The notes below the pieces were generated by a model. That model saw only the letters and a list, made by a program, of their open reading frames with translations. It had not been told where the DNA came from and made no database searches. Source: an uncultured Neglectibacter sp. (GTDB lineage Bacteria > Bacillota > Clostridia > Oscillospirales > Acutalibacteraceae). From it: DNA of 64,000 nucleotides. Position 1 is the stretch's first letter, and every line of letters starts with the position of its first letter. Positions 32,638 to 48,628 of the stretch are shown here, piece after piece. Made by a program: the position numbers and the translations under genes. The stretch is taken from contig CAMNSA010000005.1 in the NCBI GenBank assembly GCA_946554335.1, positions 62,001-126,000 of the forward strand, given 5' to 3'.

Positions 32638-34116
32638 ATGAAATGCCAACAGATCATCACCTACAGCGCAAACGGAAAAGCTTATCCTCAGGAAAAGGAG
32701 CTGCCAGTCACTCTGGAGGCGGACGAGCCCAGACACCTGGAATCAGGCGTACTCAACCTCTATCCTGATATCACCTACCAGACTATCGAAGGCTTCGGCG
32801 GCGCCATGACGGAAACCTCCGCCTATCTGCTGTCTCAGATGACCCCTCAGATGAGGAAGCAGGCGCTGGAGAAGTTTTTCAGCATGGAAGGCTGCCGTAT
32901 GAGATTTATCCGTGTTCCCATGGACAGCTGCGACTACTCCCTGGAGGAATACACCGCCGTAAAAGATCCGATGAAGGACCCGGAACTTTCCACCTTCTCC
33001 CTTGAGCGGGATCAAAAGTATATCCTGCCCGTTCTCAAGGAGGCCATTTTCCTTTCAAAGGAGCCCATCTCCGTGCTTTTGAGCCCCTGGTCTCCCCCAG
33101 CCTGCTGGAAAACGCCTCCCGTCAGACCAAAAAACGACAAAGCGGTATACGGAGAACTGCCCGGAGCGCCGGAGAAAAGCATTGATTACACCACTCCCTC
33201 CCGCTGCAACGGCGGCAGCCTGAAGCCGGAGTATTACGCCTCCTGGGCAAAATATCTGACGCTGTTTGTCACTTCCTACCTCAAAGAGGGGATCCCGGTA
33301 ACCATGATGTCCATTCAGAACGAGTCCATCGCGGCCACCAACTGGGACAGCTGCGTCTGGACCGCCCAGGAACAGAAGGCCTTTCTGAAGGATCACCTCT
33401 ATCCGGAGTTTGAAAAGAACGGTCTTGTGGGCAAGGTCGGGATCTATATCTGGGACCACAACAAGGAACGGGTGCTGGAATACGCCCGAGAGATCCTGGA
33501 CGAGGTCACTGACAAAATGGTAGAGGGCTTTGCCTTCCACTGGTATTCCGGAGACCATTTCGAGGCGGTGGAGATGGCCGGGCAGAAGTTTCCGGGGAAA
33601 GTTTTGATGCTCAGCGAGTGCTGCGGCCTTCACGCGCCGGGACGCGTGGGAACGTTGGGCACAGAAGAGCTTGGAAAGACGCCCCAGGCTGTGGAATACG
33701 AGGACGCGGTAGACTATGCCCACGACATCATCGGCAACCTGAACGCCGGCATGAGCCGCTGGATCGACTGGAACCTCTGCGTGGACAAAGACGGAGGCCC
33801 CCGCCATGTGCCGGGCGGCTTTACCGCCAGCATGATCGTCAATGACGATCACAGCTTCCGCACCAATCTGACCTACGAATTTATCCGACACTTCTCTCAC
33901 TATATCCTGCCGGGAGCGGTGCGCATCGGCTTTTCCAGATGTGACAGTCGAATTGAAATGACGGCCGCCAAAAATCCTGACGGGACTGCGGCGGTAGTGC
34001 TGCTGAACAAAGGAAATGAGGACTTAGGCTACGCCATCCGCGTATGCGATAGAGTCATTCGCGTCCAGGCGCCTGCCAGAACTTTGAGTACACTGTTGCT
34101 GGATCTTCGGGACTGA
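32638..34116 (+). CDS. Glycoside hydrolase family 30 (glucosylceramidase-like)
   Basis: The 492-residue protein matches the GH30 (beta/alpha)8 barrel plus C-terminal beta domain. The catalytic acid/base is in SIQNES (E229) and the nucleophile in MLSECC (E327). Other family markers are YQTIEGFGGAMTETSAY and SPWSPPACWKT. It lacks a signal peptide, so it acts in the cytoplasm on imported beta-glucosides or related oligosaccharides. It is transcribed alone, with the neighbouring genes on the other strand, and its transcript probably ends at the hairpin at 34259. Confidence 0.92.
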   Translation: MKCQQIITYSANGKAYPQEKELPVTLEADEPRHLESGVLNLYPDITYQTIEGFGGAMTETSAYLLSQMTPQMRKQALEKFFSMEGCRMRFIRVPMDSCDYSLEEYTAVKDPMKDPELSTFSLERDQKYILPVLKEAIFLSKEPISVLLSPWSPPACWKTPPVRPKNDKAVYGELPGAPEKSIDYTTPSRCNGGSLKPEYYASWAKYLTLFVTSYLKEGIPVTMMSIQNESIAATNWDSCVWTAQEQKAFLKDHLYPEFEKNGLVGKVGIYIWDHNKERVLEYAREILDEVTDKMVEGFAFHWYSGDHFEAVEMAGQKFPGKVLMLSECCGLHAPGRVGTLGTEELGKTPQAVEYEDAVDYAHDIIGNLNAGMSRWIDWNLCVDKDGGPRHVPGGFTASMIVNDDHSFRTNLTYEFIRHFSHYILPGAVRIGFSRCDSRIEMTAAKNPDGTAAVVLLNKGNEDLGYAIRVCDRVIRVQAPARTLSTLLLDLRD

Positions 34117-34258
34117 TCAGGAAACAGCGACCAGGATCAAAAAGCCGCGCTTACAAAGAAGTCCCCGACGAAATGCTGAGTGTTCTAAAGGACAGCAGTC
34201 TGTGAACAGATGGGAGTTCGTCATACAAATTCCATGCTTGCTACGGTATAAGACAAAA

Positions 34259-34304
34259 CCACCCGAAGAAGAGAAAAGCAACTCTTTTTCGGGTGGTAGT
34301 TTTT
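34259..34304 (+). terminator. Terminator downstream of the GH30 gene
   Basis: CCACCCGAA...AAGAG / CTCTT...TTCGGGTGG is followed by TAGTTTTTATT. It lies inside the 381-bp element. Confidence 0.8.
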
Positions 34305-34313
34305 ATTATATAT

Positions 34314-34486
34314 AGTGATATTCTGTGCTACGGCACAGAGTGATATTTTTACTTCGTAAAAGTGATATTGAAACCTGCAGTTTCAGTGATATTATATTTG
34401 CCGTTAAACTGCCGCAGGCAATATCGCTTTGCGTAAACAAAATATCACTGCAAGGCAATATCACTCGCCGCAAGGCGAATATAACT
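34314..34486. repeat. Fishbone hairpin array: eight 9-bp repeats with intervening mini-hairpins
   Basis: Four direct copies of AGTGATATT (34314, 34339, 34361, 34385) are followed by four inverted copies: AATATCGCT (34419), AATATCACT (34441 and 34457) and AATATAACT (34478). Between neighbours lie small hairpins: CTGTGC-TACG-GCACAG, TTTAC-TTC-GTAAA, GAAAC-CTGCA-GTTTC, a larger central stem-loop, TTG...CAA, TGC-AAG-GCA and CGCC-GCAA-GGCG. Pairing of outer with outer and inner with inner copies gives a long stem with opposed side hairpins, a series of four-way junctions. No coding sequence is present. Confidence 0.7.
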
Positions 34487-34514
34487 GTCGGAGTGTCCTT
34501 CCGGACACTCCGAC
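34487..34514. repeat. 12-bp perfect hairpin closing the array
   Basis: GTCGGAGTGTCC / GGACACTCCGAC with a TTCC loop lies directly after the last array copy and before the right inverted repeat. It lacks a U-tract on either strand. It may serve as a weak terminator for the transporter gene (-). Confidence 0.6.
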
Positions 34515-34549
34515 AAGTCGGGGACTTCTTTGTGTTATGGAAGAAAGGG

Positions 34550-36169
34550 TCAAGCTTTTTCCTTCTTTTTCCCATTTACCAGCTTGATGACGAACAGGGT
34601 TCCTACCATCAAAAGCACCGCCACCGGCAGGGCGATGAGGGCATTGGGGAAGAAACCCGCCACCAGGTAAGCGACGAAGCTCACCCCTGCCGCCGTCAAG
34701 GCGTAGGGCAGCTGGGTGGACACATGATCCACATGGTCGCACTGGGCGCCGGCGGAAGCCATAATGGTGGTATCGGAAATGGGCGAGCAATGGTCGCCGC
34801 ACACCGCTCCGGCCATGCAGGCGGAAACACACACCACGCCCAGCGGGTCCGTCAGGGGGAACACACTCAGGGTGATGGGGATCAGGATCCCGAAGGTGCC
34901 CCAGCTGGTGCCGGTGGCAAAGGCCAGGAAACAGCCAATGAGGAACACCACAGCGGGCAGAAACGCCTGGAACGCTCCGGCAGAGCCCTTTACAACGGTC
35001 TCCACAAATTCCTTTGCTCCCAGAGAATCCGTCATGGCCTTCAGAGACCAGGCAAAGGTCAAGATCAAAATAGCGGGCACCATGGCACGAAAGCCCTCAG
35101 GGATACAGTTCATGGTCTCGCGGAAAGTCATGGTGCGGCGCAGGCAGTAATAAAGGATCGTAAAGCCAAGGGCAAACACGGAGCCCAGCATCAGGCCCAC
35201 GGAAGCGTCTGAATTGGAGAAGGCATCCACAAAAGAGGTGCCGGTAAAGAATCCGCCGGAGTAGATCATGCCGATGACACAGCAGACGATCAGCACCAGG
35301 ATGGGCAGCACCAGATCCAGCACGATCCCCTTTTCCTCTTCCTCCTGACCTTCCAGATTGGCGTAGGGATTTTTGCCGGAGAACAGGTCTCCCTTCTCTC
35401 TGGCGTTATCTTCAAAATGGGCCATCGGACCAAACTCCACCTTCATCAGCACCATGCCCACCATCATCACAACGGTGAGGATCGCGTAAAAGTTGAAGGG
35501 AATCGCCTGGATAAACAGGGAAAGACCGTTCCCATCCTCCACATAGCTGGCCACCGCCGCGGCCCAGGAGGAGATGGGAGCGATGATACACACAGGCGCC
35601 GCGGTAGCATCGATCAGATAAGCAAGCTTCACACGGGAAACCTTGTGCTTGTCAGTGACTGGACGCATTACGGAACCCACGGTCAGGCAGTTGAAATAGT
35701 CGTCAATAAAGATGAGCACGCCCAGAACAACGGTGGCAAGCTGTGCTCCGGCTCTGGTCTTGATATGCTTCGCCGCCCAGCGGCCGAAGGCTGCGGAACC
35801 GCCCGCCTTGTTCATCAGGCAGACCATGGCGCCCAGGATCACCAAAAACACTAGAATTCCGATGTTGTATCCGGAGGACAGGACACTGACGATACCGCCG
35901 GAAAACACATGCAGCACCGTGCCCTCAAAGGAATAGCCGGAATAGAGCAGACCGCCCATTAAAATTCCCACAAACAGAGAGGAATACACCTCTTTTGTGA
36001 TCAGGGCCAGGGCGATGGCCACTACGGGCGGAAGCAGCGACCAGGCCGTGGCATAAAATCCGCCTTGGGCCTCCGCGCTTTCTCCATTCCCCAATACCGC
36101 GGGGATCACCACTGCCGCCAACAGGATCACGGCAAGCAAGATCCCCTTTACCAGATTGGACTTCTTCAT
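34550..36169 (-). CDS. NhaC-family antiporter, probable lysine transporter LysW
   Basis: The 539-residue membrane protein from ATG 36169 (GAGGGAGAG upstream) has about 12 hydrophobic segments of the NhaC/LysW superfamily, including FIDDYFNCLTVG, GTSWGTFGI and CGDHCSPISDTTIMAS. By sequence alone it would be called a Na+/H+ antiporter. A lysine riboswitch lies directly upstream, and such riboswitch-controlled NhaC proteins were proposed to be lysine transporters (LysW). Uptake rather than export is implied by the OFF logic of the switch. It is transcribed alone. Confidence 0.85.
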   Translation of the reverse strand: MKKSNLVKGILLAVILLAAVVIPAVLGNGESAEAQGGFYATAWSLLPPVVAIALALITKEVYSSLFVGILMGGLLYSGYSFEGTVLHVFSGGIVSVLSSGYNIGILVFLVILGAMVCLMNKAGGSAAFGRWAAKHIKTRAGAQLATVVLGVLIFIDDYFNCLTVGSVMRPVTDKHKVSRVKLAYLIDATAAPVCIIAPISSWAAAVASYVEDGNGLSLFIQAIPFNFYAILTVVMMVGMVLMKVEFGPMAHFEDNAREKGDLFSGKNPYANLEGQEEEEKGIVLDLVLPILVLIVCCVIGMIYSGGFFTGTSFVDAFSNSDASVGLMLGSVFALGFTILYYCLRRTMTFRETMNCIPEGFRAMVPAILILTFAWSLKAMTDSLGAKEFVETVVKGSAGAFQAFLPAVVFLIGCFLAFATGTSWGTFGILIPITLSVFPLTDPLGVVCVSACMAGAVCGDHCSPISDTTIMASAGAQCDHVDHVSTQLPYALTAAGVSFVAYLVAGFFPNALIALPVAVLLMVGTLFVIKLVNGKKKEKA

Positions 36170-36216: not shown

Positions 36217-36404
36217 CCACCCCGCAATCTGAATCACAACAGCGCTCCGCCCTCAAAGGAGGGCGACAGTCTGTGAGATCTTCTCCCACAGCCCGGCAAA
36301 AAGGGAGCCAGACCAGCCCTTTCACCTCGGCGAACTCCCCTTTCTCCCCTTTTCCCGTCTGAAGGAATGTCAAAAAGGATACTGATGTCATTCGCGCCTC
36401 TATC
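36189..36404 (-). promoter_or_regulatory. Lysine riboswitch (L-box) with expression platform
   Basis: The aptamer spans about 36404-36265 on the minus strand. It has the L-box signatures AGAGGCGCGAA...AGTA, AAAGGGGAG-TTCGCCGA, AGGGCTGGTCTGGC and CCGGGCTGTGGG. P1 pairs GATAG (36404-36400) with CTGTC (36269-36265). The 3' strand of P1, ACTGTC, is also complementary to GACAGT (36210-36205) in the terminator stem. Lysine binding should therefore free the terminator and switch the transporter gene off. Confidence 0.9.
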
Positions 36405-36418
36405 ATGCTAACGAGATA

Positions 36419-42629: not shown

Positions 42630-42673
42630 GGCTCCGCAAAGGCTCCGCAAAGGCTCCGCAAAGGCTCCGCCTT
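42630..42673. repeat. Tandem repeat, 11 bp x 4
   Basis: The unit GGCTCCGCAAA occurs three times perfectly and a fourth time as GGCTCCGCCTT. It is intergenic, between the unknown protein gene and the Gfo/Idh terminator. Confidence 0.85.
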
Positions 42674-48561: not shown

Positions 48562-48586
48562 ATGCTTCACCTCGCTGGTTAGTGGT

Positions 48587-48628
48587 CAGTCGTCAGATTT
48601 CAGTCGTTAGATTTCAGTCGTTAGAGAA
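48587..48628. repeat. 14-bp tandem repeat upstream of hisH
   Basis: Three units: CAGTCGTCAGATTT, CAGTCGTTAGATTT and CAGTCGTTAGAGAA. Related units occur at 59750-59777. Confidence 0.75.

Follow-up and report, generated by a model that had tools for sequence, protein, structure and literature searches.

Within the window, by which we mean the whole 64,000-nucleotide stretch of Neglectibacter DNA that was analysed, an array of short repeats separated by mini-hairpins is flanked by a glycosidase-like frame and an NhaC-like frame, both named by reading. What is such an array, and does it act as RNA, as DNA, or as part of something larger? The original prediction left two possibilities, a DNA substrate for a structure-specific nuclease or transposase, or a transcribed RNA.

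The repeat-hairpin array and its pairing

The array is present in the sequence as it had been described. Four exact copies of AGTGATATT, a direct-repeat family on the plus strand, start at positions 34314, 34339, 34361 and 34385 of the window; in minus-strand order they are R'8 (34314-34322), R'7 (34339-34347), R'6 (34361-34369) and R'5 (34385-34393). They are followed by four inverted copies: AATATCGCT at 34420-34428 (R4, AGCGATATT on the minus strand), AATATCACT at 34441-34449 (R3) and again at 34457-34465 (R2), and AATATAACT at 34478-34486 (R1, AGTTATATT on the minus strand). All four were placed by sequence, with alignment for R4, R3 and R1 and an inverted-repeat search for R2. Every gap between copies is filled by one small hairpin. 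Those at 34323-34338 (CTGTGC-TACG-GCACAG), 34348-34360 (TTTACTTCGTAAA) and 34370-34384 (GAAACCTGCAGTTTC) are documented by sequence, alignment and covariation, and hairpin 1 (CGCC-GCAA-GGCG, 34466-34477) by sequence and alignment. A centre segment (34392-34402), identified as an inverted repeat and by covariation, pairs with 34474-34484, i.e., with R1 and the 5' arm of hairpin 1. Folding is strong as well: the stretch 34250-34540, which includes two strong flanking hairpins besides the array, is more stable than each of 200 dinucleotide shuffles, whether folded as RNA (z -11.0 and -10.8 for the two strands) or as plus-strand DNA (z -10.3).

An alignment of 31 arrays (A1; 47 items, of which 36 were parsed and five near-duplicates removed) gives a consensus that comprises six local hairpins plus a long stem, in which the first repeat with its hairpin arm pairs with the centre. 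Compensated double changes are observed at 19 of 41 pairs, in 168 cells, a result reached in 0 of 500 shuffles; columns 5 and 110, for example, hold A-U in 12 arrays, C-G in 10 and U-A in 9 of the 31. The local hairpins thus covary strongly, bearing out the proposal that the spacers change in sequence and keep their pairing. The companion proposal, a fishbone in which outer copies pair with outer and inner with inner, was rejected as the main fold: covariation in A1 is strong for the local hairpins and the stem between first repeat and centre, but weak for nested R:R' pairing, with 2 double-change cells. The A1 set was gathered by exact copies of AGTGATATT and is biased for this particular comparison, since three of the four R' copies are invariant (31/31) by construction and are therefore unable to show compensated changes. 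In a set gathered without exact copies (82 rows, 33 of them informative, most elements being read on both strands), no other register outdoes the nested one in 29 of 33 rows, and its total is reached by 0 of 2000 random assignments. Because shared descent of the two arms by inverted duplication gives the same outcome, nested copy-to-copy pairing is weakly supported, and chains of four-way junctions are a possible form of the array.

Relation to Gut-1 and occurrence in other genomes

The layout had been thought to belong to no named family, which proved incorrect. One arm of the array (34416-34487, minus strand) matches the Rfam family Gut-1 (RF01706) at 52.9 bits (E 1e-9), above the gathering cut-off of 50 bits, while the other arm (34313-34397, plus strand) scores 46.5 bits and falls below it. 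With one match on each strand and the arms facing, the "fishbone" amounts to two Gut-1 arms in inverted orientation. Gut-1 is presented by Weinberg et al. (2010) as a likely noncoding RNA. The order of repeats and hairpins is the same in the window array and in this family, and one arm passes its covariance model. In contrast to Gut-1, the unit described here consists of two inverted arms with ends, often with a gene; it is dispersed mobile DNA with DNA-type loops, and it also occurs in animal-gut Clostridia genomes, beyond human metagenomes.

As expected, similar arrays exist elsewhere. Gut-1 matches were detected in 9 of 40 genomes (the window's own and eight relatives), above the cut-off in seven. 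Four genomes hold 29 to 34 matches each, so that gut Clostridia reach dozens of copies per genome; in the window's own genome, the window copy is joined by a further two-arm array and a partial match. Neighbouring arms less than 120 bp apart face each other in one shared orientation in 86 of 90 pairs (462 loci, some places being counted twice). An exact three-copy pattern retrieved at least 116 stretches. Among the 80 matches listed, 79 have titles that name Clostridia, Clostridiales, Oscillospiraceae, Ruminococcus or Bacillota, and the majority of these come from animal guts; the other, from Planktothricoides (L177), was rejected as an unrelated 14-bp tandem repeat. A search of phage and plasmid collections returned two unannotated faecal scaffolds and none, respectively, and viral contigs yielded 6 and 114 stretches with three-copy patterns, the looser GTGAAAT pattern being expected to take in chance matches.

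Arrays are found in two settings. Some come directly after a terminator that belongs to a tRNA or tmRNA gene, and others lie within terminator loops in the vicinity of protein genes. Of 57 scanned loci, 27 include a tRNA or tmRNA gene, a count in which some places appear twice and not all genes are adjacent to the array. At the tRNA-Val locus of two species of one genus (L495:1557-1836 and L491; the genus of G027), the arrays carry different words, TGATGT and TGATAT, and the terminator hairpin is altered too; in a third species the terminator is visible and the contig stops a few bases on. Two tRNA-side arrays (L106 and L176) have an inverted copy of a tRNA T-arm-like sequence in their right flank.

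Individual loci display further variations. L038 and L041 are nearly identical around their arrays, but in the left arm hairpins 1 to 3 have been exchanged for different ones that keep the pairing. One genome contains one-arm arrays (L061, L062, L065, L067 and L069), some immediately before start codons, with other dispersed repeats alongside.

Loops of the DNA type

Among array hairpins read in repeat orientation with stems of at least 4, 85 of 155 triloops are of the form C(TNC)G and 90 of 149 tetraloops of the form C(TNNC)G; with stems of at least 6, these counts are 23/52 and 61/98. Control hairpins with stems of at least 6, strands mixed, give 35/364 and 18/324, the reverse forms numbering 40 and 18. 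On the other strand the array loops read C(GNA)G and C(GNNA)G, which we take to be the exceptionally stable DNA mini-hairpins of the GCGAAGC type. The loops obey this DNA rule on one strand and do not follow RNA loop rules. Their statistics argue against selection at the RNA level. The array probably acts as DNA and is linked to mobility, in keeping with the first of the two possibilities raised at the outset.

The second possibility corresponds to the reading attached to Gut-1, a noncoding RNA gene whose transcript would contain the array and whose hairpins would function as RNA. The Gut-1 score above the Rfam cut-off and the strong covariation are what one would expect of such a gene, yet it is an unlikely explanation of the window array in view of the two inverted arms, the many dispersed copies and the mobile-element ends. 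The loops argue in the same direction: besides following the DNA mini-hairpin rule, they exhibit no GNRA preference (only 48 of the 90 tetraloops on the other strand) and no UUCG (C(TTCG)G, 0). In protein-linked units, moreover, the array is often followed by a promoter-like site. The plain small-RNA reading was demoted to an alternative on account of the loops, the inverted arms and the mobile ends; for some copies, a noncoding RNA is possible.

An element inserted in a split terminator

The end of the feature at 34486 was correctly predicted, but the feature itself is larger. The array belongs to an insertion of 347 bp (34170-34516, minus strand, delimited by reading the junctions), in which no gene was recognised, and this insertion splits an intrinsic terminator spanning 34153-34533. 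The terminator arms, 34153-34169 and 34517-34533 (GTCGGGGACTTCTTTGT), form a 17-bp perfect inverted repeat with an arm score of 28.4; the second arm emerged from the inverted repeat, the flank-arm test and the junction reading alike. On the minus strand the element is composed of an end hairpin, the array, a second hairpin and the far end. The end hairpin, hp0 (TGTCGGAGTGTCC GGAA GGACACTCCGACA, 34486-34515, minus strand), provides one terminal repeat with its outer half, and the far terminal repeat (34170-34195, plus strand) matches it imperfectly (34178-34194 with 34494-34510, 82% complementary); both were assigned from the inverted repeat and the junctions. A terminator-like hairpin within the element (34258-34297, plus strand), found as an inverted repeat and by a terminator scan, is followed by a T run on the plus strand. 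The two junctions share a TT core.

Such insertions recur. In the arm test, performed on 47 arrays (the window and the 46 of 83 pattern-found arrays that were parsed), flanking arms score at least 18 in 11 cases, one of which (L106) is a tRNA T-arm sequence and no terminator, against 1.75% of 400 cross-locus flank pairings, the best of which reaches 27.1. Seventeen cases picked from this test, seven of them scoring below 18, were read at their junctions: the element opens with a hairpin whose outer half resembles the far end, inverted, and TT or NTT was seen by eye at both junctions in about ten of the 17, the others being ambiguous. Examples are ATT/ATT (L123, L131, L122 and L163), AAT/AAT (L127) and TTT/TTT (L152). 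L152 and L163 are the nearest relatives of the window element, with the right-hand hairpin, the tail and the far end alike. Related insertions have their ends in common; their terminal repeats are imperfect, their core is mostly TT, and their targets are terminator loops. Matches to the L130 locus number 2 to 31 per genome in 15 of 15 genomes, and the limits of many of them fall close to those of the element (query about 698-705 and 1053-1061); flank homology beside them was observed in one stretch (G074) among the matches listed. An empty site was found neither in the genus (nine loci read) nor in 15 related genomes, and recombinase-type ends were not recognised at the many arrays standing 3' of tRNA or tmRNA genes.

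The window element has the attributes of a MITE: it has no transposase gene, it possesses inverted terminal repeats, although imperfect ones, and it exhibits a target duplication (2-3 bp, read by eye and ambiguous in some relatives) and dispersed copies, few of them in its own genome. To MITEs and to BOX, BIME and REP repeats the array elements are similar in being small, dispersed and gene-less, with inverted terminal repeats and hairpins. They differ in their serine-recombinase-like ends, in targeting terminator loops, and in a repeat word that varies by family and tracks a partner protein.

Two other insertions may be mentioned here. An element with the same type of hp0 and the repeat word GTTATGA is found at L379:3100-3650, also in a terminator loop, and at L385-L387. 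A further terminator insertion, 1.2 kb long and bounded by its own inverted ends GGTTGGTTCTCATAAGGAAG / CCTTATGAGAATAAACC, is located at L466:10150-11351.

A DUF4368 recombinase as candidate mover

A larger relative of these elements was identified in the genome of L152. At L470 (10913-19141), 8.2 kb of DNA interrupt a terminator, TAAAAAAAGCACCC / GGGTGCTTTTTTTA, and encode a 570-residue protein with Resolvase, Recombinase, Zn_ribbon_recom and DUF4368 domains, i.e., a large serine recombinase, together with TnpW, a Mob_Pre relaxase, VanZ, an FtsW-family match, PadR, TnpV and DUF6809. The end hairpins of this element were compared with those of L145, an array element found in a different genome: 28 of 28 letters are identical on the left and 28 of 30 on the right. 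As a recombinase element and an array element have nearly the same end hairpins, we infer that the window copy is probably a non-autonomous passenger of a DUF4368-type recombinase. No recombinase gene lies within 34170-34516, and the window element's own recombinase was not found; its genome contains two recombinases. Among 36 loci, credible terminator arms around a recombinase element were seen at L470 only, and such arms were seen at none of 20 further regions, 14 of which have a recombinase-like frame by pattern. Other cargo travels likewise: at L465:13387-14302, a lone GNAT acetyltransferase gene, with no array, is enclosed between ends of the same type in a split terminator.

Tn4451 carries tnpV and tnpX, and the DUF4368 recombinase, TnpV, TnpW and Mob_Pre relaxase of L470 are reminiscent of Tn4451/Tn5397-like (TnpX/TndX) elements. 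Unlike in these, the targets here are intrinsic terminators and the array elements are non-autonomous. Durrant et al. (2022; PMC10083194) describe the DUF4368-rich recombinase clade as multi-targeting, and one of their examples has a TT core, so that many targets and this core are points of resemblance; the word "terminator" does not occur in the main text of that paper. A TnpX/TndX-type large serine recombinase of this clade, supplied by a larger relative, would probably insert the element at the TT of an intrinsic terminator loop, the element ends serving as half sites and the terminator palindrome as the target.

A different mover is conceivable, namely a single-strand (HUH/Y1) transposase acting on a BIME/REP-like repeat, with the recombinase ends acquired as a later vehicle. 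It is compatible with the conserved linear word that accompanies a hairpin on one strand, the variable copy number and one-arm arrays, the DNA-type loops and the tRNA-side copies without recognised recombinase ends. We nevertheless hold it to be improbable: inspection by eye of the recurrent array neighbours listed revealed no Y1 gene, and the sequences of the array hairpins are unconserved, whereas those of REP hairpins are conserved.

A four-helix-bundle protein linked to the array

The largest cluster of frames shared between array loci is a four-helix-bundle protein, present at 11 loci that correspond to 8 places. It was assigned to PF05635 (S23/IVP) and matches PDB 2rld (five chains) with an E-value of 9e-30. 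In the 8 places its gene follows the array in one direction, 12-124 bp downstream; at L142 the gene has the array on its opposite side, and near other loci several PF05635 genes lack an array in their vicinity. A PF05635 search gave 56 matches in 15 of 16 genomes, mostly picked as array-bearing, against 0 of 14 control genomes. Inspected by eye, 23 of 30 PF05635 loci have an array directly upstream, six places being already known from the array side; those without are L511, L526, L536, L537, L539, L513, where the array is not adjacent, and L512, at a contig end in the window's own genome. An automatic detector reports an array at 16 of 28 PF05635 loci versus 7 of 240 control windows. Applied to a phylum-wide sample, it finds one at 1 of 28 PF05635 genes, and hence the link to the array holds for one branch of the family. 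The window element has no PF05635 frame, either by reading the frames of 34170-34516 or by the PF05635 search.

The repeat words encountered are GTGATATT and kin, AATGATGT, AGCTAAAT, GTGAAAT, GTGAAGT/AATGAAG, TGATAT/GCGATAT, GTTATGA and ATGAATTG; words other than GTnnTATT, whose clade includes the four-helix proteins of L470 (2341-2706) and L173, are for example AATGATGTT and AGCTAAAT. They follow the protein. On a tree of 23 proteins, with some long branches, few firmly supported ones (5 of 20 starred) and several rows that are long or short fragments, the word has 8 states and requires 7 changes, the minimum, the lowest of 300 shuffles being 11; the word labels were assigned by reading before the tree was made, some of them lumped (GTnnTATT as one). 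The host genome, on the same tree, requires 19 changes versus a shuffled mean of 18.7. With four rows removed, 5 states require 4 changes, the lowest shuffle being 7. A permissive promoter pattern, used with no shuffled control, matches 15 of 23 units; its first hexamer starts at the last repeat in ten, and four of the 15 matches lie inside the array or the gene. L540 is the sole unit read that combines array, PF05635 gene and split terminator: the other terminator arm was sought in seven gene-bearing units with hp0 and left arm (four places, three of them twice), and only L540 has it.

A precedent is provided by the 23S rRNA intervening sequences. The S23 element of Coxiella is described as selfish, with heptamer repeats upstream of a gene whose protein family has no known function (PMC4990558). 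The features in common are the S23-family protein, the position of a selfish element inside the hairpin of another sequence, and the upstream heptamers. In contrast, the arrays lie outside rRNA, each is built of eight words with hairpins and DNA-type loops, and the words vary with the protein clade; the Rfam scan of the window detected no rRNA, and the window site is not 23S rRNA. Neither arrays beside S23 proteins nor recombinase insertion into terminators was found among the literature matches listed, mostly open papers.

A joint account of the array

Retention by the host as a spare terminator or insulator cassette, where genes and tRNAs end, would fit the location of the sites and the terminator-like hairpins of 34050-34620 (4 found versus 0.5 expected), but is very unlikely, as the same element stands beside unrelated genes with target duplications and the repeat words track the protein tree and not the host.

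We favor instead, as the probable explanation, a non-autonomous mobile element with the array at its core, in an account that joins recombinase insertion at terminators with a cognate four-helix protein. Fuller arrays stand directly upstream of the S23/IVP-family gene. Each protein lineage having its own repeat word, the repeats are most likely candidate specific binding sites of that protein, spaced by DNA mini-hairpins on one strand. A promoter-like site starting at the last repeat in about ten of the 23 units suggests autoregulatory binding as the likeliest immediate role. The predicted binding would control the protein's own gene and tag every copy of the element in trans. In the window copy, the array is present and the protein gene absent. 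The simplest account is a selfish unit of array and cognate protein that uses at least two vehicles, one of them the serine-recombinase ends, and leaves protein-less copies behind.

More tentatively, and with slightly less than even confidence, this could be generalised to a two-part selfish system: an array of words spaced by DNA mini-hairpins, read by a cognate S23-family protein and changing with it by lineage, for which serine recombinases and tRNA-end sites would be interchangeable vehicles. We know of no earlier ligand of S23/IVP proteins, and such a system would give the family what is apparently its first; the family is without known function in PMC4990558, and this function would become directly testable, as each protein of the branch comes with an array of candidate binding words. 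Furthermore, an Rfam "noncoding RNA" would be re-filed as half of a mobile DNA element, and transcription terminators would be natural landing sites for multi-targeting serine recombinases.

Other features of the window

Beyond the array, an ordinary lysine riboswitch (36232-36410) lies upstream of the NhaC-like transporter frame, and 42630-42670 and 48586-48625 are short tandem repeats, the units being 11 and 14 bp long.
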